Positions 42,545 to 53,408 of a stretch of 64,000 nt of DNA are shown here, piece after piece. The notes below the pieces were generated by a model that was not told the origin of the DNA, searched no databases, and saw nothing but the letters and a program-made list of their open reading frames with translations. Positions within the stretch are counted from its first letter, which is position 1. The number at the start of each line of letters is the position of its first letter. The translations under genes and the position numbers were made by a program. This DNA is from Actinoplanes lobatus (GTDB taxonomy: Bacteria > Actinomycetota > Actinomycetes > Mycobacteriales > Micromonosporaceae), in NCBI RefSeq assembly GCF_014205215.1, contig NZ_JACHNC010000001.1, positions 1,493,001-1,557,000 on the forward strand, in the 5' to 3' direction.

Positions 42545-42657
42545 CGACATCAGTTCGGATGGCGCTGGGGACGGGGCGGATGTCACACAGCGTTGCCGAC
42601 TAGGGTGTGTGCCCAGAGTCACCCGTCCCGCCACCCCCAGATCACCCGGAGGTCACC

Positions 42658-43515
42658 GTGACCAGCCAGTCCGACGAGCCCGAGGCGTCCGCGCCGGTGG
42701 CCGAGAAGCCCTCGTCCGAGGGGACTTCCGGGCGGGAGCTTTGGGAGCATGTCCGCGTCTCGCCGGTGGAGATCGCGCTGCCGGCCGGGGTGGCGCTGAC
42801 CCTCCGGGCGTACCGGAAGGCGTCCGAGCTCACGCCCACCGAGGTCCAGATCGATGAGGACGACCCGTTCGAGGCCCGCAAGCGGCGTGCCGAGGAGAAC
42901 GAGGAAGAGGTCATCGTCGACGAGGAGTACCAGGCACTCCTCACCGAGGGCGAAGCGGAGGAGGGCAAATCCACCGAGGAGCCGGACCCGGCTGACTTCG
43001 AGGACGAGCCCGCGGCCCAGGCGGATGACGAGGAGGTGCCCATGTTCCTCAGTCACAAGGGCCGCCTGCTCGCCTTCAAGACGCCCGAATCGCTCGTCTC
43101 CTTCCTTCGTTCGGGTGCTCCGCACGATCTCGCACAATTGGACACCTGGGGTGACCTGGCCGAGCGGGTACAGTCGAGCGACATCGACCCGCAGCCGGAG
43201 GACCGTTACGAGCTCGATCTCGTGGTGGAGAACCTGCGCGGCGGACATGACACGTGGGACCTGCCGCTGCTCATCAACGCCGGCGAGATCGCCCGCGACC
43301 TGGGGTATGCACTCCGTATCAAGCCGGTGATCCTGGCGCTGTCGCCCGGTTCACCTCTCGACGATCTCGACGAGTCCCTCCGGACCTCGGAGAAGGGCGG
43401 GATGGGCGGATTCTTCGGTCGCCGCCGATTGAAGAAAATCGGGGCACAACAGGCGAGTCTCGGCTGGCGTTCGGTGATCGGCAAGATCTCTGCCGCTGTG
43501 GACTGGCGTGACTGA
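42658..43515 (+). CDS. Conserved acidic actinobacterial protein
   Basis: This 285-aa protein has a very acidic N-terminal half (runs such as RRAEENEEEVIVDEEYQ) and a C-terminal globular part beginning MFLSHKGRLLAFKTPESLVSF and ending in a basic GFFGRRRLKKIGAQQ segment. I do not recognise a defined function. GTG 42658 follows GGAGGTCACC. The stop overlaps the start of the IS110-like gene by eight bases, so the two are probably made together and may act together. Confidence 0.75.
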   Translation: MTSQSDEPEASAPVAEKPSSEGTSGRELWEHVRVSPVEIALPAGVALTLRAYRKASELTPTEVQIDEDDPFEARKRRAEENEEEVIVDEEYQALLTEGEAEEGKSTEEPDPADFEDEPAAQADDEEVPMFLSHKGRLLAFKTPESLVSFLRSGAPHDLAQLDTWGDLAERVQSSDIDPQPEDRYELDLVVENLRGGHDTWDLPLLINAGEIARDLGYALRIKPVILALSPGSPLDDLDESLRTSEKGGMGGFFGRRRLKKIGAQQASLGWRSVIGKISAAVDWRD

Positions 43516-45844
43516 CCGATTACCAGGGAATATCAATCCTTGGCCACAGAGAAGCACTCCCGGGGAGGAGGACGACGCCGTGGCGCTCGTGCGCGTGTAC
43601 TGCGGTCTCGCGTCGGCTGATGATTCGGTGCGTACGGCCTCGGCCGCACCACTGACCGTCGCCGTGGTGGACGACGCAGGCCGGCTGCTCGGCGTCCATG
43701 AGATCAGCGACGACCCGGCCGGCTACGCCCAGCTGGGGACGCTGCTCGTGGAGCGGACGACGGGCTTCAGCGACGCGGCGGTCGCCGCCGACAGCGACGA
43801 CCACGTCGTGACGTCACTCCTCACCGCGGCGGGCCGGCCACTCGTGGTCGTCGACGACGACGGGGCCGACGACTTCGCCGAACGCTTCTCCGACGACGAC
43901 TCTCCCGAGGAGATCGCGGCGCCTGCGGCCGCCCGGCGGGCCGTCGGCCTGGCCCGGGCGCTGCAGGCCGGCGCGATCGCCGCGGTCACCCTGCCCGCTC
44001 CCCGGGAGCTCGTCAGCTACAAGCCGGTCCTCGCCGCCCATGTGGCGATGCTGGGCGGCCGGAACGCGGCGGCCGTCGCCCTGCGCGAGGTCCTCCGCGA
44101 GCTCTACCCGGCGGCCCTCCGGGCGTACCCGGATCCCGCCCACCCCGTCTGCATGGCCGTGCTCGACGCGGTGCCCGAGCCCGGCCGGCTGACCGGCCGG
44201 GCCGGCGACACCGACCAGGTTCTGCGGGAGATCACCGCCGAGCTGGTCCGCGCCGGCGCCGGGTCCTCCGGCGAGGTCGGGTCCGCCGTCACCGCCCTCC
44301 AGGTCGCGATCAGCGAGTCCCCGCGCCGGGGCGGCGTCAACAAGTCCCTCGCCCCCGCCGCGGCCGAGTCGGTCCGCCAGGCGATCTCGGCCATCCGCTC
44401 CTGCGACGCCGCCTGCGCCGCCCTGGTCGGCACGCTCGACGCCCGGGCCACCCCGCCGCTCACCGGACCGAACGTGGGCCGTCGCGGCACCCGCCGCGGC
44501 GCCGAGCCGCCCGTGCTCGAGCCCGTGCCGACCGGCGACAACGGCAGCCGCTTCGGCCGTCGTGGCCGCCCCGAGCCCGCCTCCTCCGGCGCCGGCCCGG
44601 CCACTCCCCGCCCGATGACCGCGCCGCCGGTCGCGCCGGACCCGATCGGGCCGCCCCCGATGGCCCCGGCCGCGGCGAACGGTCTGCCCGGCCGCTCCAC
44701 GAACCCGCTGAACCGGCCGGTCTCGGTGCCACCGCCCCCGCCCGGCATGACCCCGATCACCCCGGGGTCCCGTCCGGCGCCGGCGACCCGCAACCCGGCC
44801 CGACCGTCGTCGGTGCCGCCGGTCCGCCCCACGTCGGTTCCGCCCGCCCGCCCGTCGTCGGTGCCGCCCGCTGCCGCGGGCACACCCGCCGATGCCGGCG
44901 AGCCGTTCCGGCCCACCCTGACCAACGCCGAGCTGAGCCGGGCCCGGGCCGAGCGGCGCACGGTCATCCCGCCGCGCCCGCAGACCACGCCCCGTCAGCA
45001 GCCGGCCGCCAACGGCACGCAGGCCGGCCCCACCGACTTCAGCCTCCCGATGCCGGCCCAGCGGCCCGCCCAGGAGATGCCGGAGCCGGGTTCCCGGGCC
45101 AACTGGCCGCTGCTCAACACGGAGAAGGACGAGGCGCCCATCGCCTCCTCGGTCAGCTCGCCGCCCGGCGGCCGCGTCCGGCCGCCATGGCACGACATGC
45201 CGCAGGAGCCGCCCGCCCTGGAACTCCCCAAGGAGCCGGCGCTGCGTCTCGTCGACCAGGCGAAGAACGGCAAGCGCGCCCGCCTTCCCGGGCTCGACCA
45301 GATGGGCGGCGCCGCCACCCCGCCGATGCGCCGGCCGGACAGCGACGACCGCGGCCACAACGGCGGCAAGCTGACCGCGCTGGACCGCAGCTCCGCACCG
45401 CCGGTCCCGTCCGACAGCAGCGACGGCGACCTGCTGATCTTCGCGGCGGCCCGGTCGGCCTGGTTCACCGGCCACACCGACACCAACGACGACGTCACCT
45501 GGACCAACCCCAACGACAGCGGCTGGCGCGCCGCGGAGAAGGCCGCCACCCCGGCCGTCGCCGCGGAGACCTCGGCCGGTCTGCCCAAGCGGGTGCCGCA
45601 GGCCAACCTGGTCCCCGGCTCCCCACTGCGTGAGGAACGCCCGATCCGCATCGTCCGCGACGCCGCCTCGATCGCGGCACACACCACGGGCTACTTCCGT
45701 GGCTGGCGGCGCGGCCAGGAGATCGGCGGCTTCGCCATGGGCGGTCGCCCCGGGCGCGAGGCGGCCGGCGGCTGGGACTTCACCCGTGACGGCCAGCCCG
45801 CCGACGAGTACCGCAACAACAGCGCGGGGTACGGCGGCCGCTGA
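43508..45844 (+). CDS. Degenerate IS110-like fold fused to a Pro-rich linker and conservon-kinase-like tail
   Basis: This 778-aa protein has three parts. Residues about 24-250 resemble the RuvC-like DEDD domain and following helices of IS110-family transposases: LTVAVVDDAGRLLGVHEI with PAGYAQLGTLL, and LREVLRELYPAALRAYPD. The acidic catalytic positions do not line up, so it looks inactive. Residues about 330-640 are Pro/Arg/Ser-rich and disordered. Residues about 640-778 contain SAWF (650-653), DSGWRAAEKAA and AGLPKRVPQANLVPG (690-704), which match the C-terminal tail of the conservon histidine kinase downstream. It lacks terminal repeats or any transposon context, so it appears domesticated. 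GTG 43508 overlaps the acidic protein gene. A link to conservon signalling is inference from the shared tail. Confidence 0.7.
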   Translation: MTDRLPGNINPWPQRSTPGEEDDAVALVRVYCGLASADDSVRTASAAPLTVAVVDDAGRLLGVHEISDDPAGYAQLGTLLVERTTGFSDAAVAADSDDHVVTSLLTAAGRPLVVVDDDGADDFAERFSDDDSPEEIAAPAAARRAVGLARALQAGAIAAVTLPAPRELVSYKPVLAAHVAMLGGRNAAAVALREVLRELYPAALRAYPDPAHPVCMAVLDAVPEPGRLTGRAGDTDQVLREITAELVRAGAGSSGEVGSAVTALQVAISESPRRGGVNKSLAPAAAESVRQAISAIRSCDAACAALVGTLDARATPPLTGPNVGRRGTRRGAEPPVLEPVPTGDNGSRFGRRGRPEPASSGAGPATPRPMTAPPVAPDPIGPPPMAPAAANGLPGRSTNPLNRPVSVPPPPPGMTPITPGSRPAPATRNPARPSSVPPVRPTSVPPARPSSVPPAAAGTPADAGEPFRPTLTNAELSRARAERRTVIPPRPQTTPRQQPAANGTQAGPTDFSLPMPAQRPAQEMPEPGSRANWPLLNTEKDEAPIASSVSSPPGGRVRPPWHDMPQEPPALELPKEPALRLVDQAKNGKRARLPGLDQMGGAATPPMRRPDSDDRGHNGGKLTALDRSSAPPVPSDSSDGDLLIFAAARSAWFTGHTDTNDDVTWTNPNDSGWRAAEKAATPAVAAETSAGLPKRVPQANLVPGSPLREERPIRIVRDAASIAAHTTGYFRGWRRGQEIGGFAMGGRPGREAAGGWDFTRDGQPADEYRNNSAGYGGR

Positions 45845-45860
45845 CCCCGCCCTGATCCCT

Positions 45861-45896
45861 CGGAGGGGCCGCGACCACCCGGTCGCGGCCCCTCCG
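45861..45896. terminator. Strong GC hairpin after the IS110-like gene
   Basis: A 16-bp perfect stem (45861-45876 with 45881-45896) closes an ACCC loop, 16 bases after the stop codon. There is no T-tract, as is common for actinobacterial terminators. Confidence 0.75.
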
Positions 45897-46079
45897 CCGT
45901 TCCCCGGGTCGTGTCCTTCGTGGCGGGACGGCGTTGATGGGAGATGGGGTGGGCAGCACAGCCCGGCGGTGCCGCACGGGCGGGACCCGGCAGCGGATCG
46001 CGGTGCGCCAGGGTTCAGGGGTTGTGCGGTCGAGGGCTGCTCACCCCGTACCGGTGAAGGGTTTTGTGATGATGGCGCG

Positions 46080-46784
46080 ATGCGCGCGGTGATTTTCGAT
46101 TTCTTCGGGACGTTGACGGATCCGGCGGCGGAGGCGCTGCGGCCGGGGACGTTCGCGGAGACGGCGGCGGCGCTCGGGGTGCCGGCGGAGGCGTTCCGGG
46201 CGGCGATGGTGGCGAGTTTCCCGGAGCGGATCGTGGGGGCGCTGGGCGGGACCCGGGAGACGCTCCGGGCGATGGCCCACCGCTGCGGGGCCGAACCGGA
46301 CCACGAACGGCTCGACCGCGCCGTCGCGACACACCACGCGGGCGCTGAGCGGGTCCGCACGCCGCGCGGGGGCGCCCTCGCGGTACTCGACCACCTCCGG
46401 GCCCGGGATTTCCGTCTGGGGCTTCTCAGCGACTGCGCGAGCGAGCTGTCCGAGGCGTGGCCGGAGACGGTCTACGCGGACCGCATCGATGTCCCGGTGT
46501 TCTCCTGGCGCGAGGGTCGCCGCAAACCTGACCCCCGGCTGTACGCCGTCGCCGCCGAGCGTCTCGGCGTCCCGGCCGAGGAGTGCTGGTTCGTGGGCGA
46601 CGGCGGCGGCCGGGAGCACGACGGCGCCCGCCGGGCCGGCATGCGGCCGGTGCTCGTCACGAACGCCGGCTACCCGGGCGCTTCCGGGACGCGGGTGGAC
46701 CCGGACACCTACCTCCCGGAGCACCGGATCGACGAACTGGACGAGTTGATCCGGTTACTGGGAACGGCTTGTGACAACGGGTGA
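46080..46784 (+). CDS. HAD-family hydrolase
   Basis: This 234-aa haloacid dehalogenase-like phosphatase has motif I FDFFGTLTD (nucleophile Asp), motif II LLSDCASEL, Lys in RRKPDPRLYAV and motif IV FVGDGGGREHDGA. The cap domain is helical (residues about 15-90). Substrate is unknown. ATG 46080 is the first codon of the conserved core; no clear ribosome-binding site is present. It sits alone between the IS110-like gene and the conservon, facing the latter across a terminator. Confidence 0.88.
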   Translation: MRAVIFDFFGTLTDPAAEALRPGTFAETAAALGVPAEAFRAAMVASFPERIVGALGGTRETLRAMAHRCGAEPDHERLDRAVATHHAGAERVRTPRGGALAVLDHLRARDFRLGLLSDCASELSEAWPETVYADRIDVPVFSWREGRRKPDPRLYAVAAERLGVPAEECWFVGDGGGREHDGARRAGMRPVLVTNAGYPGASGTRVDPDTYLPEHRIDELDELIRLLGTACDNG

Positions 46785-46822
46785 CCGCTCATATACGATG
46801 ACGGACGGCCGGAAAGCGCGCG

Positions 46823-46872
46823 AAAGCCCCGCACCGGCCAGTGGAGGGTTTCCACCGGCGGGACGGGGCTTT
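46823..46872. terminator. Branched terminator hairpin between HAD gene and conservon
   Basis: AAAGCCCCG (46823-46831) pairs with CGGGGCTTT (46864-46872). Inside, GTGGA and TCCAC form a second small stem. T runs are available in both directions, suiting the convergent genes. Confidence 0.75.
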
Positions 46873-46930
46873 CGACCGTTGACTGGGCGCTGAGCCTCCC
46901 CAGTGGAGCGGCTCGTCAGACGGTCTCTGC

Positions 46931-47518
46931 TCAGGCGGGCGCGGTCGCGCGGGTGCGACGCATCGTCAGCACATACTCGACGAGCGAGATGAGGACGTTC
47001 TTCGTCGACTCGCGGTTCCGGGCGTCGCAGCTGACCACCGGCACGTCGCTCGAGATCGCCAGAGCGTCCCGCACGTCCTGCGCGTTGTGGTACTGCATGC
47101 CGTCGAAGCAGTTTATCGCCACCAGGTACGGCAGGCGGCGATGCTCGAAGAAGTCGATGGCGGCGAAGCAGTCGGCGAGCCGACGCGTGTCCACCATCAC
47201 GACCGCACCGATGGCACCCCGGACCAGTTCGTCCCACATGAACCAGAACCGTGTCTGGCCGGGGGTACCGAACAGGTAGAGGATCAGGTCGCGGTCGATG
47301 CTGATCCGGCCGAAGTCCATGGCCACGGTCGTGGTCATCTTGCCCGGCACCTGCCGGTTGTCGTCGACACCCACACCGGCCGAGGTCATAATCGCCTCGG
47401 TGGTCAGCGGGGTGATCTCCGAGACCGACCCCACCAGCGTCGTCTTACCGACGCCGAAGCCACCGGCGATGACAATCTTCGCCGATGTCACGCGTCCCGC
47501 AGCGGGACGGTGAGACAT
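46931..47518 (-). CDS. cvnD: Conservon GTPase-like protein CvnD
   Basis: This 195-aa small Ras/MglA-like nucleotide-binding protein has a P-loop GGFGVGKTTL near residues 20-29, a Walker B-type switch LYLFGTPGQTRFWFMWDEL and a base-recognition loop reading VAINCFDG where NKxD would be expected. It is the fourth member of the conservon, a membrane-associated signalling complex with histidine kinase, roadblock and DUF742 proteins that in Streptomyces works like a eukaryotic G-protein system. ATG 47518 lies one base after the cvnC stop. Confidence 0.93.
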   Translation of the reverse strand: MSHRPAAGRVTSAKIVIAGGFGVGKTTLVGSVSEITPLTTEAIMTSAGVGVDDNRQVPGKMTTTVAMDFGRISIDRDLILYLFGTPGQTRFWFMWDELVRGAIGAVVMVDTRRLADCFAAIDFFEHRRLPYLVAINCFDGMQYHNAQDVRDALAISSDVPVVSCDARNRESTKNVLISLVEYVLTMRRTRATAPA

Positions 47519-47519
47519 G

Positions 47520-47906
47520 TCAGAGCCTGCGAAGTCCACTCAGCACCCTTTCCAGCAGTTCCGTGCCTACCGCGTCGGTCTCGTCCTCGAGCGAGGTGGG
47601 CTCGTACACCGCGACAAGGCCGTCAGAGGCCATGTCGGCGACGATCACACGTGCCACACCAAGCGGCAGTTGCATGCGAGCGGCGATCTCGGCCAGCGAC
47701 TGAACTCGGCCGCCGTCGCACATCGCCGCGATGTACTGATGCTCGCTTCCACCCTGCCCGCCGCGGCTTATTCCAGAACGGCCGCGCACGGTTGTCTCGA
47801 CCAGCGCTTCCAGCGCTATCTCAAGCTTCGGCCGGGTCCGACCACGGGTCACGGCGTACGGCCTGACCAGCGCGCCAGTCGGCTCATCGCGTTCAGGCAT
47901 CGTCAC
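47520..47906 (-). CDS. cvnC: Conservon DUF742 protein CvnC
   Basis: This 128-aa DUF742 protein has the family start (GALVRPYAVTRGRTRP) and a winged-helix-like body (VQSLAEIAARMQLPLGVARVIVADM, in two parts, ending DGLVAVYEP). It bridges the kinase and the GTPase modules in conservon complexes. GTG 47906 follows AAGGGG; ATG 47900 is an alternative. It is 126 bases from cvnB and one base from cvnD. Confidence 0.92.
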   Translation of the reverse strand: MTMPERDEPTGALVRPYAVTRGRTRPKLEIALEALVETTVRGRSGISRGGQGGSEHQYIAAMCDGGRVQSLAEIAARMQLPLGVARVIVADMASDGLVAVYEPTSLEDETDAVGTELLERVLSGLRRL

Positions 47907-48032
47907 CCTCAACCCCTTCCTCGGCCCCTCGAAGTGTATTGGTTCTCAAAGTTTTCACCAGTAGCCGGCTGGAGCCTATCCGCGGCCGAAAACCCCGGAT
48001 GAGCCCCTGATCGACTCCGGCTGACTGTCGCC

Positions 48033-48437
48033 TCAGCCCAGCACCCCGGCCGCGGAACGCGGCGCGGGGGTCAACGCCTCGCCGACGCGGTCGACCAGGA
48101 GGGCCATCTCGTAGCCGACCTGACCGACGTCGCAGCTGCGCGCCGCGAGCACCGCGAAGGAGGAGCCGTCAGAAATGGACATGAGGAACAGGAATCCGTT
48201 GTCCATCTCGACGACCGTCTGAAGGACGGCGCCGCCCTCGAAGCATCGCGCGGCGCCCTGGGTAAGGCTTACCAGGCCGGACGCGATGGCCGCCAACTGG
48301 TCGGCACGGTCACGCGGAAGGTCCCGCGAGGCCGCCAGGAGCAGACCATCGGCGGAGACCGCGATCGCGTGCGCGACCCCGGGAACGCGGTCGGCGAAGT
48401 TGGCGAGAAGCCAACCGAGATCCTGCGTAGATGTCAT
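48033..48437 (-). CDS. cvnB: Conservon roadblock/LC7 protein CvnB
   Basis: This 134-aa protein is a single roadblock/LC7 domain ([51 protein letters not shown]), the kind that acts as a regulator of MglA-like GTPases. ATG 48437 overlaps the cvnA stop by four bases (ATGA), giving translational coupling with the kinase. It presumably contacts CvnD as an activator or scaffold. Confidence 0.95.
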
Positions 48438-51400
48438 GCCTCATGCTCCTTGCCAGCCTGCGAGGGCTGCTGCCCTCCCGGAGTGTCCTCCAGGTTGGTC
48501 GATTGTTCCTTGGTGCGACCGCGCTGCACACCACGGTGGTACGCGGAAAGGAGACCGCGAACCCCCTCAGGAGTACGGCGCTGGACGGAGGTACCGCCCC
48601 GGTCGACACCGCCGGGGACGAGTTGCGCCATCGGCGTACGTTTCGGAAGGCCCGCATTGGTGGTCGAATCGACCGGAGCCTCAGCGGCCGCACGAGCCGC
48701 CTGCCAGCCGTCGTCGGCCGCGGTCCGCCACGGGTTCGACGCGGGAGCCGCGTCGTTGCCGTAACCGGTCGCCGCCGCGGCCGGTGCACCAACACTAGCC
48801 GTGTCGAGGTTGCGGACCTCGGGCGATGCCGCCTGCTGCGGAACGGCCGTGTTGCGGGTCGGCTCACCGGTCGGGAACCGCTGGGAGACCACCGACTCCT
48901 CACCGGTGCCGGAGACCTTGGGCCGGCCGTCGTCGGCGCCGGGCACCGTGGTGGTGAACCAGGCGGACTCGAGCTCCCGGAAGATCGGCAGCTCCATCGT
49001 CTCGTCGGCGAACGGAACCGCACCCTCACGGGCGGAGGCCATCTGGGCCGCGGCCGTGGCCTGCACCTCCACCGGCATGGTCACCGGCGGAGCCGACACC
49101 GGGAACGGTGCGGTCTGCGGGTTGGCCGGCGGCGCCACCTGCGGCTGGGGCTCGAAGTTCTCCGGACGGTACCGCGGGATCTCGGCCGTCATGTCGAGCG
49201 CGGCGGCCAGGTTCTCGGGCACGTGCGGGGTGGCCGGTTCGCGTTCGGCGACGACCGGCGGCCAGGCCGGCGGCGCTGCCGCGAACGGGTTGCGCTGGTC
49301 GGCTGGCGAGATCGGCGAGGCCGAGATCGGCTCGATCGGGGCCGCGGAGTACGGGGCCGCCGACACCGGCGGTGCGGAGACCGGGGGTAGCGGGGGCGCC
49401 GAGACCGGCGGCATGAACGAGTTCGGGTTGGCGGGGAGCTGCCGCGGTATGTTCGCGCCGAAGCCGTTGGTGTCGCTCTCCGGGCGCTGGTACTCACCGC
49501 TGCGGCGCTGGGCCAGCTCGTCCAGGCCGGCGAAGCCCTGCGGACCGGACGGCAGCGGCGGGATGACCTCGTTGCTGCGCGGGCCGTGGAAGCCGTTCGC
49601 CAGGCCGTTGCCGTTGAAGCCGCCGCCACCGTTGTGGCCACCGGCGTTGAACCCGCCGAAGCCGGCCGGAGCCGCGCCGGTCAGGTCGGACCACGCCGGG
49701 ACCGAACCGTTGGGGCCGTTGGAACCGGGATAGCCGTTGGATCCGGGGTAACCGTTGGATCCGGGGTAGCCGCTGCTCTCCAGAGCCAGGGGCTCGCCGA
49801 AGCCACCGGGCAGGCCGGCGCCGGGACCACCGTCGAACGAGCCACGCCCATGGACCTGGGCGGTCGCGGCGGTGGCCAGGACCGAGACGGGCAGGCCCAC
49901 CTCGGCGACGGTGCCGCGCTCGCGGTCGGCCGGTCGCAGTTCCACCCGAACGGCATGGCGGTTGGCCAGCCGGGCGACCACGACGAGGCCCATCATCCGG
50001 GAGACGGCCACGTCCACCGTCGGCGGGTTGGCGAGCCGCTCGTTGAGGTCGCGGAGCTGCTCACGGCTGATACCGATGCCGTGGTCCTCGACGGTCAGTA
50101 CGGCGTTCTCGCCGACGCGCCGGGCCTCGACCATAACGTTGGAGTTCGGCGGGGAGAAGGCGGTCGCGTTGTCGAAGAGCTCGGCGACCAGGTGGACCAT
50201 GTCGTTCACGGCGTGCGCCGCGACCTCGATCTCCCGGTCGATCATGCCGAACTCGATGCGGGTGTAGTGCTCGACCTCGGACTGGGCGGCACGGAGCACG
50301 TCGATCAGAGCGGCCGGCTCGCGCTGCACACGGGTCGAGTCGGCGCCCGCGAGAACCAGGAGGTTCTCGTCGTTACGACGCATTCGGGTGGCCAGGTGGT
50401 CGAGCTGGAAGAGCTCGGCCAGCCGGTCCGGGTCCTCCTCGCCGCGCTCCAGCCGGTCCAGGTGACCGATGAGCCGGTCGACCAGGATCTGCGAACGGCG
50501 GGCGAGGTTGACGAACATCGTCGCGACGGAGGCACGGAGTGCGGCCTGCTCGGCCGCGGTCCGCACGGCCTCGAGGTGAACCGCGTTGAACGCCTCGGTC
50601 ACCTGCCCGAACTCGTCCCGGCTGCGCACCGGGAGGGGCTCGGCGATCTGGTCGGCGACCTGGGCCGGGGTGAGCGACGCGGAGAGCGCCGGGTCACGCA
50701 GCCGGCTGACCGCGTGCGGCAGGCCGAACTGGGCGACCGCGAGGGCACCCTGACGCAGCTCCCGCAGCGAGCGGGCCATCGACCGGGCGACCAACCAGGC
50801 GAACAGGATGGCCAGCAGGAGCATGCCGAGCAGGATGCTGGTCTCCAGGAAGACCTGCTGGTTCGTCTCGTCACGCAGGTCGGTGGCGTCGGCCACGATC
50901 TGCTTGTCGAGTTCGGACTCCACCTGGCGGAAGAGGGAGTTGTACCCGGACAGGGCCTCTTCCCACTCGCCCGAGTTGAACTGGATCTTCCGGATGTTGT
51001 CACCCTGGAGGGCCATGAGCGGGATGCTCAGGTTCTCCGCCTGCTGCTTCTGCTTGCCGACGACGGTGTTGTCGAAGAGCTCCTGCTCCTCGGCCGTGCC
51101 GACCGCCTTCATCGTCTCGGTGGCGAGGAGGTAACCGGTCTGGGTCTCCAGGAACTCCTGCCGGAGTTTCGAGTTGAACTCACCGGCTCCCACGACCTGC
51201 TGGCCGATGAAGCGCTGCTGGGCGATGTAGTCCTTGGCCTGCGCGACCGCGGCCACCATCCGGAGGTGGTTGCTCAGCTCCGGGTCGATGGCCAGCTGTG
51301 CCGACGCGTCACGGACCTGGAGCAGGTCGTTGACGAGCGTGTCGTAGGTCTTCGTGATGTTGCCGAGGTCCTCGCCGCCCTTCGCCGCCCGGCTCCGGAA

Positions 51401-51859
51401 GGTGGGCAGGTCGACGAGGTTACGGTCCAGGCGAACGATCAGCTTGCCGACGTTCTCGGGGACGTCCTCGAGGACCTGCTTCTGCTGGAGGTAGGGCTCC
51501 TTGGCGGCGTCCACCTGGGCGTGCTCACCGTTGTAGAGCTCCACGGCGGCCTGGAAACCAGGCGTGTTGCTGGTGGTCTTCGCCGTGAAGATCATGATGG
51601 CGTAAGTGCGCTCGGCCTGAAGGTGGTCGACCAGACCACCGGCCGCCTGCGACAGCACCGAGAGGGTGCGTGCGCGCTCCGCGTTACTGGCTTCGTCGAT
51701 GTGGTCCACAAGGCCGTTGACACCAACGATGATCGTCGCCACCGTCGGAACCAACATGATCAGGCCTAGTTTTGACCAGATCGGTAGGTCTCGGAGTCGA
51801 CTCGCAGGTCGACTGAGACGCGACATGACGCCATTCGCGCTGTTGGGGCGCTTGCTCAC
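48434..51859 (-). CDS. cvnA: Conservon sensor histidine kinase CvnA with nitrate/nitrite-sensing-type domain
   Basis: This 1141-aa protein has membrane helix 1 at about 31-51, an extracellular NIT-type helical sensor (about 55-330), helix 2 (about 335-358) leading into HAMP, a dimerisation segment without an obvious classical H box, and a HATPase with N564 ([11 protein letters not shown]) and [10 protein letters not shown] long disordered Pro/Gly-rich C-terminal region follows, with three tandem GYPGSN units encoded near 49715-49780. The extreme tail has SAWF (965-968) and [15 protein letters not shown] (1069-1083), matching the tail of the IS110-like protein. GTG 51859 follows GGAGG at eight bases. 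It is the first gene of cvnABCD. Confidence 0.93.
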
Positions 51860-52310: not shown

Positions 52311-53408
52311 TCAGCTGAGCAACTTGGCGTACGCCGGCTTGATCACCTCATTGATCAGCGCCAACCGCTCGTCGTACGGGATGAAGGCGGATTTCATGGC
52401 GTTGATCGTCAGCCACTGGAGTTCCGTCCAGCCCCACCCGAACGATTCCGTCAGCAGAGTCATCTCCCGGGACATCGACGTGCCGCTCATCAACCGGTTG
52501 TCGGTGTTGACCGTGACCCGGAACCGGAGGTCGTGCAGCAGCTTGATCGGGTGCTCGGCGATCGACGGGGCGGCGCCGGTCTGCACGTTCGACGACGGGC
52601 ACAGCTCCAGCGGGATCCGCTTGTCCCGGACGTACGCCGCGAGCCGGCCCAGCACCGGCGGCGCCGCGTGGGTGCCCCCGGCCGCGGTGACCGTGATGTC
52701 GTCGACGATGCGCACCCCGTGACCCAGCCGGTCGGCGCCGCACCACTGGATCGCCTGCCAGATCGACGGCAGCCCGAAGGCCTCGCCCGCGTGGATGGTG
52801 AAGTGGAAGTTCTCCCGTTGGAGGTACTCGAAGGCGTCCAGGTGCCGGGTGGGAGGGAAACCGGCCTCCGCGCCGGCGATGTCGAAGCCGACCACGCCGG
52901 TGTCCCGGTAACGGACCGCCAGCTCGGCGATCTCCTGCGAACGGGCGGCGTGCCGCATCGCGGTGAGCAGGGTGCCGACCCGGATGGGCGTGCCGTTCGC
53001 CGCGGCCTCGGCGCAGCCCTCCCGGAACCCGGCGTGCACGGCCTCGACCACCCGGTCCAGCGTGAGACCGCGCTCCAGGTGCTGCTCCGGCGCGTACCGG
53101 ACCTCGGCGTAGACCACACCGTCGGCGGCCAGGTCGAGCGCGCACTCCTTGGCGACCCGGTGCAGGCCCTCCGCGGTCTGCATCACCGCCACGGTGTGCG
53201 CGAACGTCTCCAGGTACCGTTCCAGCGAGCCGGAGTCGGCCGCCTCGACGAACCACTCGCCGAGCCGCCCGGGATCCGTGGTGGGCAGTTCGTGGCCCAC
53301 GGCGGCGGCGAGTTCCACGATGGTGGCCGGCCGCAGCCCGCCGTCCAGGTGGTCGTGCAGGAGAACCTTCGGGGCCTTGACGATGTCGGAGTGTGCGATG
53401 CCAACCAT
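52311..53408 (-). CDS. add: Adenosine deaminase
   Basis: This 365-aa enzyme deaminates (deoxy)adenosine to (deoxy)inosine. The zinc site is visible as HDHLDGG (18-24), the catalytic HAGE segment ([11 protein letters not shown]), GHGVRIVDD, and [11 protein letters not shown] in place of the usual [11 protein letters not shown] belongs to the conserved CPxSN loop. It is divergent from the methyltransferase gene with 26 bases between starts. Together with cdd and the phosphorylase it completes nucleoside salvage in this region. Confidence 0.95.

Follow-up and report, generated by a model that had tools for sequence, protein, structure and literature searches.

Gene content and organization of the locus

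The stretch of DNA analysed here (the window) comprises 64,000 nucleotides of the Actinoplanes lobatus genome and encodes, according to Pfam, a full set of the conservon genes cvnA, cvnB, cvnC and cvnD, all on the reverse strand. The cvnA gene (48434..51859) encodes a sensor kinase with NIT, HAMP and HATPase domains, cvnB (48033..48437) a Roadblock/LC7 protein (PF03259, E 8.8e-23) that we propose as partner of the tail described below, cvnC (47520..47900) a DUF742 protein (PF05331), and cvnD (46931..47539) a small GTPase (PF03029, E 2.6e-33) which weak matches to Ras and GTP_EFTU mark as Ras-like. An adenosine deaminase gene (52311-53408) flanks the other side of the conservon.

Facing the conservon on the forward strand lies tnp (43580..45844), whose product appears, from comparison of orthologues, to be a domesticated and catalytically dead IS110-derived protein with a CvnA-type tail. 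Its start is most likely the GTG at 43580, after GGAGGAGG, which gives a protein of 754 aa; an earlier ORF start lies at 43508. tnp and cvnA are convergent, as originally predicted, and the distance between them is 2.6 kb (45844 to 48434) instead of about 3 kb as first stated, with a HAD hydrolase gene (46080..46784, forward strand), cvnD, cvnC and cvnB in between. Among the matches listed, the HAD hydrolase gene was present in only some of the related loci. Upstream of tnp, and separated from it by 64 nt from stop to start, the forward strand encodes an acidic SatS-like protein (42607..43515). The match to NF050072, the family of the mycobacterial SecA2 export chaperone SatS, is partial (E 8e-9) and its 34.9 bits are far under the family cut-off of 700. 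A promoter and terminator scan showed nothing telling. As regards a possible bridge RNA, an Rfam scan of the window gave no match.

Three parts can be told apart within Tnp. The head (43580..44480) is predicted to combine a RuvC-like domain of RNase H fold with an IS110-type, Nop-like helical domain, the first catalytic Asp being replaced. It is followed by a Pro-rich linker (44481..45427), which is fast-evolving by identity comparison and, from weak model evidence, probably disordered. The tail consists of a first box, DLLIFAAARSAWFTG (45428..45472), and of boxes 2 and 3 (45500..45718), which were delimited by profile alignments and read W....D.GW.AA...AGLPKRVPQANLVPG...GYFRGWRRGQ. The counterparts in CvnA, on the reverse strand, are a box 1 of 14 residues (48950..48991) and boxes 2 and 3 beginning with WRTAADDGW (48515..48730).

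Tnp and CvnA share a C-terminal tail

The original prediction had described an ungapped stretch of about 20 identities in 36 positions between the two proteins, together with an upstream SAWF motif in both. We counted 21 identical residues of 36 between Tnp 670-705 and CvnA 1049-1084 (numbering from 43508 and 51859, respectively), and SAWF was found at position 650 in Tnp and 965 in CvnA. None of 200 shuffles preserving composition in 60-residue windows reached 21 identities (maximum 15, mean 12.4). BLASTP of the whole Tnp against the whole CvnA yielded one good match (29/73 identical, E 4e-7), and hhalign of 13 tnp tails against 10 CvnA tails aligned 72 columns with a probability of 98.8 and an E of 4e-17, so that the common module has about twice the length first described. 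No sequence other than this tail was found common to CvnA and Tnp.

The tail is built of three collinear boxes, namely IF....SAWF, W....D.GW.AA...GLPKR.P.A.LVPG and a C-terminal ...Y.RG..RG., and 20 positions are invariant across 16 tails of both families. The first box is present in all 74 tnp orthologue ORFs examined for it and, in a looser form, in 68 of 70 neighbouring CvnA ORFs. It is less general than boxes 2 and 3, with its pattern in 12 of the 20 carriers from the class described below, a set that includes truncated or frameshifted ORFs. Box 3 has a basic and aromatic character (GYFRGWRRG in Tnp). Within Tnp the tail is the best conserved part, with a mean pairwise identity of 69% as compared to 60% for the N-domain and 34% for the linker (92 ORFs; 8 of 100 did not fit the patterns and were left out). 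A chance or low-complexity convergence, in an otherwise ordinary or decaying transposase, would draw on the fact that Ala and Pro are abundant in both tails and that each comes after a long Pro-rich linker. We rejected this explanation as extremely improbable on the basis of BLASTP, the 72-column profile match and the shuffles, and likewise in view of the three collinear boxes, the 20 positions invariant in both families, and the conservation of both place and tail. The two tails are thus homologous, and on the alignments we hold this with much higher confidence than the docking function proposed below.

A nearly invariant extension, GGRPGREAAGGWDF (45740-45781, forward strand), follows the common tail in Tnp orthologues and is absent from CvnA. 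The Tnp tail may therefore have an additional ligand.

Long disordered regions had also been predicted in both proteins. For the Tnp linker this is weakly supported by pLDDT values below 50 across most of residues 315-665, taken from a poor whole-protein AF2 model (mean pLDDT 44) which was left out of the fold analysis.

The head of Tnp derives from an IS110 recombinase

A sequence profile (A2) finds genuine IS110 transposases, and PF01548 was found in 6 of 12 members of the Tnp family. A RuvC-like domain of the PF01548 fold is present, and the homology to IS110 runs on through the helical part that follows. Foldseek by itself gave no match at E <=0.001, the IS110 fold match coming from a second look, and a PDB sequence search with the profile returned nothing credible. 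A Pfam scan of the tnp ORF showed no IS110 domain, HATPase_c, PF02371, P450 or GAF domain. The 'IS110-like' label of the original prediction was thus right by profile matches and fold, though the ORF itself has no Pfam match, and by these comparisons Tnp is of IS110 ancestry.

The catalytic residues of this ancestor are not retained. At the position of the first catalytic Asp, 92 Tnp orthologues have Ala (89), Thr (2) or Ser (1) and never Asp, which is found in 12 of 13 sequences of an IS110 comparison set (the 13th was unmatched by the pattern). The remaining DEDD residues are not kept as DEDD in Tnp, as judged by eye among the alignment rows listed; in IS621 each DEDD residue is essential according to the available text of PMC11208158. 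The PF02371 Tnp domain with its catalytic Ser is absent as well, and past about residue 315 only linker and tail follow. Signs of mobility are also lacking, since the gene is usually single-copy, with the same neighbours and in a fixed place. At E 1e-30 the N-domain was detected in 126 of 150 genomes of the family, with two matches in only 2 of those. The idea that deep genera are devoid of the gene, suggested by the 24 unmatched genomes, proved wrong: 10 of 11 that were re-searched with the tail profile hold a diverged tnp with tail, and the 11th, a fragmented genome, gave only a kinase-sized match. With the same high confidence as for tail homology, we consider Tnp to be domesticated and, judging from its residues, catalytically dead. 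Compared to the IS110 recombinases IS621 and ISCro4, it shares the RuvC-like fold and the homology through the helical part, but lacks the first catalytic Asp and the Ser-bearing Tnp domain, is usually present once in a fixed place, and carries the CvnA tail instead. From Nop5 of box C/D RNPs it differs in being bacterial and in having a signalling tail. Relatives of tnp are often annotated as 'transposase' in Micromonosporaceae.

A second, diverged tnp-like ORF with a full tail (GLPRRAPMSNLVPG) was seen in genome G403 (L164:5519-7021, forward strand). No SatS-like, conservon or Roadblock match was found there within the 17 kb retrieved.

Distribution of the tail

In the genome of A. lobatus, the tail search gave 18 matches at E 10, three of which were strong, the fourth having an E of 0.011. 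The strong carriers are tnp, the neighbouring CvnA and a second CvnA that is likewise followed by a Roadblock gene; six other conservon kinases read in this genome have looser C-terminal versions (GLPRR..., GLKKR...). Of 24 genus genomes, that of A. lobatus among them, 23 had three tail matches and one had four, with only ORF length and place known for most of these matches. A class-wide search at E 0.01 found matches in 132 of 296 genomes. For 20 carriers from the class (18 from this search and 2 from the genus search), a CvnB gene lies downstream in 20/20 and a kinase core upstream in 18, the other 2 being at contig edges.

Ten genomes of the family gave 62 tail matches, of which 10 are tnp by position. 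A further 40 were retrieved, 37 with a kinase core; the remainder of the 62 consists of a kinase retrieved earlier (L149), one match at the neighbouring cvnA and 10 weak ones that were left out. The three without a kinase core comprise L178, which lies at a contig edge and has CvnB, L185, a diverged pair of tnp and Roadblock genes, and L207, a weak match in another ORF. The motif is therefore not spread among unrelated Pro-rich proteins, which would have spoken against the original prediction, in the genome itself, the 24 genus genomes and the ten family genomes, this single weak match apart. Tail-bearing kinases are not always followed by a Roadblock gene, as we had supposed: among the 37 there is a CvnB match in 33 and none in four (L183, L184, L186 and L206), where no CvnB, CvnC or CvnD was found within about 4 kb downstream. 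Three of these orphan kinases, from Actinocatenispora, have a strong tail (78-82 bits), and the tail of L206 is weak; loci L220, L221 and L222 represent the same places as L183, L184 and L186. The Actinocatenispora label is based on a 100% protein match, and we tentatively take genomes g132 and g139 to be Stackebrandtia and Glycomyces. The four kinases indicate that a linked Roadblock gene is not required for the tail to be present. The tail is accordingly a class-wide C-terminus of CvnA kinases, usually but not always with a linked CvnB. Nearly all carriers examined are either CvnA or Tnp, and Tnp is the only strong carrier found besides CvnA.

The ORF with the weak match (L207:2871-3857, forward strand, genome G388) contains a stretch (LPRRFPGRN...REASSIAQNTSSYLRGWHLGNE) that resembles the Tnp tail in its second half. 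This match scores 29 bits with the Tnp-tail profile and about 2 with that of CvnA, and an overlapping reading frame looks PadR-like by eye. By this resemblance it is a possible third kind of tail carrier.

Conserved neighbourhood and a Roadblock gene paired with tnp

The surroundings of tnp are well conserved. The SatS-like gene and tnp share a strand in 80/80 loci, with the SatS-like gene upstream in all 59 tested, and cvnD, cvnC, cvnB and cvnA follow tnp in this order and convergently in 57 of the 59 loci that are long enough; 21 of the 80 were too short, including 4 in which the locus lacks the end of the tail. The other two long loci have cvnD, cvnC and cvnB with no kinase match before the end of the retrieved span. 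The co-occurrence of tnp and cvnA expected from the original prediction thus holds in other genomes.

Several deep-branching genera, Actinocatenispora among them, carry a Roadblock gene immediately after tnp. A profile built from these tnp-paired genes matched 33 of 150 family genomes at 170-267 bits, the next best score being 114.8, which separates them cleanly from the conservon CvnBs. In all 22 loci retrieved of the 33, representing 11 genera, the Roadblock match starts 0-125 nt past the tnp stop on the same strand (within 22 nt in 21), and both paired proteins tested carry Robl_LC7. In a tree, 11 of the 22 genes form one lineage apart from the conservon CvnBs, based on few columns and on a very long branch; the tree row fam_L185 and L208 represent one and the same gene, so the label there seems to change twice. 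Overall, a Roadblock gene after tnp was found in 22 of 93 classified loci, and the 71 without it have only the conservon CvnB on the opposite strand. These 93 come from 107 loci, 80 of which stem from a search favouring near relatives, minus 7 unclassified loci and 7 where neither neighbour was found (L164, with its second tnp-like gene, and 6 in which too little sequence was available). The window belongs with the 71: no Roadblock gene follows tnp, and the best match of this genome to the paired-Roadblock profile is the conservon's own CvnB (109.7 bits).

We had considered that the private Roadblock gene and the convergent conservon might be mutually exclusive. This was wrong, as 11 of the 22 loci have both. 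The other 11 are without the conservon in the span retrieved, with no cvnC or cvnD and the Roadblock gene alone. These loci bear on the possibility that Tnp acts as an output effector, namely as an IS110-derived protein that binds nucleic acid and is recruited by CvnD or CvnC, with a tail that contacts those proteins and not CvnB. The combination of RuvC and Nop-like domains is an RNA/DNA-binding architecture in the available text of PMC11208158 and PMC12045711, and the whole conservon does converge with tnp in nearly all long loci. With neither cvnC nor cvnD in the retrieved span of half of the Roadblock-paired loci, we regard this explanation as improbable.

A Roadblock gene is the sole type of gene found directly after both CvnA and Tnp, and the tail is the sole sequence these two proteins have in common. 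The simplest reading is therefore that the tail serves as docking site for a Roadblock dimer of the CvnB type. As cvnB normally follows cvnA in conservons, the adjacency there is weak evidence, and the specific evidence is the tnp-Roadblock pair: because the private Roadblock gene lies directly after the tail-bearing tnp in 22/22 retrieved loci that have it, CvnB is the best candidate partner, and we favour docking with moderate confidence. The tail could instead be an address label sending both proteins to one place, such as the membrane, the hyphal tip or a scaffold like DivIVA, where CvnB-type proteins work. A basic and aromatic box 3 could bind membrane, and the tail is nearly invariant in Tnp even where no private Roadblock gene follows and persists in the orphan kinases. 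This alternative leaves unexplained why the dedicated Roadblock gene is paired with a tail-bearing Tnp in all 22 retrieved loci, from 11 genera, that have this gene, and we judge it rather unlikely. The orphan Actinocatenispora kinases themselves speak for a tail that uses a Roadblock protein made elsewhere, or another ligand.

A possible non-kinase counterpart of CvnA

Docking of a Roadblock protein by the tail would allow the following model. Tnp is an inactive IS110 recombinase remnant joined through a long linker to a conservon kinase tail. In CvnA, the tail would couple the membrane sensor to CvnB and hence to the conservon's small GTPase, CvnD. The tail of Tnp would create a soluble, non-kinase counterpart of CvnA that would bind a dimer of Roadblock proteins: the private one in deep-branching relatives, and probably the CvnB of the neighbouring conservon where the private gene is missing (Actinoplanes, Micromonospora). 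The physical contact between tail and CvnB and any effect on the GTPase are inferred here from gene adjacency and sequence, as is the partner of Tnp in genomes without the private gene. Of the original suggestion that a common partner brings both proteins into one complex, the common partner is retained as the best explanation, with CvnB as best candidate by gene adjacency, and the single complex is not, two parallel complexes being as likely where Tnp has its own Roadblock protein.

Related arrangements are known. The available text of PMC8510531 cites a CvnA9-CvnB9 interaction by two-hybrid and does not map it to the tail. In Myxococcus xanthus, RomR (with MglC/MglB) likewise has a folded N-domain, a disordered Pro-rich linker and a C-terminal helix as docking site for a Roadblock protein, alongside a small Ras-like GTPase; it binds the Roadblock protein MglC with a KD of 2.6 nM, W394 being crucial, as given in the available text of PMC12719032. 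RomR has a REC domain, and its likeness to Tnp considered here is one of architecture. Conservons (CvnA-D) may further include the accessory proteins CvnE, a P450, and CvnF, a GAF protein, which are found with kinases lacking a sensor domain and are predicted to bind near HATPase domains (PMC13343842, available text). Tnp has neither a P450 nor a GAF domain, carries the kinase tail itself and is encoded outside the cvn operon. It shares with the complete conservon of the window the CvnA tail and, in relatives, a following CvnB-type gene. With CvnA it shares the tail, a class-wide feature found here rather than a published criterion, but it has no HATPase_c. Among the matches listed in a literature search that covered few subscription journals, no paper connected an IS110 protein with conservons or with Roadblock proteins. 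What appears to be new is therefore an IS110-derived, tail-bearing and Roadblock-paired protein, a putative non-kinase counterpart of CvnA that arose from a dead recombinase.

What the dead RuvC/Nop head senses or binds may be nucleic acid or, by analogy with Nop5, a protein. A more specific and rather doubtful version is that the head still binds RNA or DNA through its Nop-like domain and hands this state on to a small GTPase by way of the Roadblock dimer docked on the tail; if true, a former RNA-guided recombinase would have become a G-protein switch that responds to nucleic acid. The signal path of conservons from kinase to GTPase is poorly understood (PMC13343842, available text), and the conserved CvnA tail of about 75-110 residues, together with its proposed partner, offers a testable part of it. 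Our results would also correct many 'transposase' annotations in Micromonosporaceae. The pairing of tnp with a Roadblock gene and the presence of the CvnA tail suggest that bacterial G-protein signalling has taken in a protein from a mobile element; if so, a transposase would have been recruited as a signalling component and not for cutting DNA.
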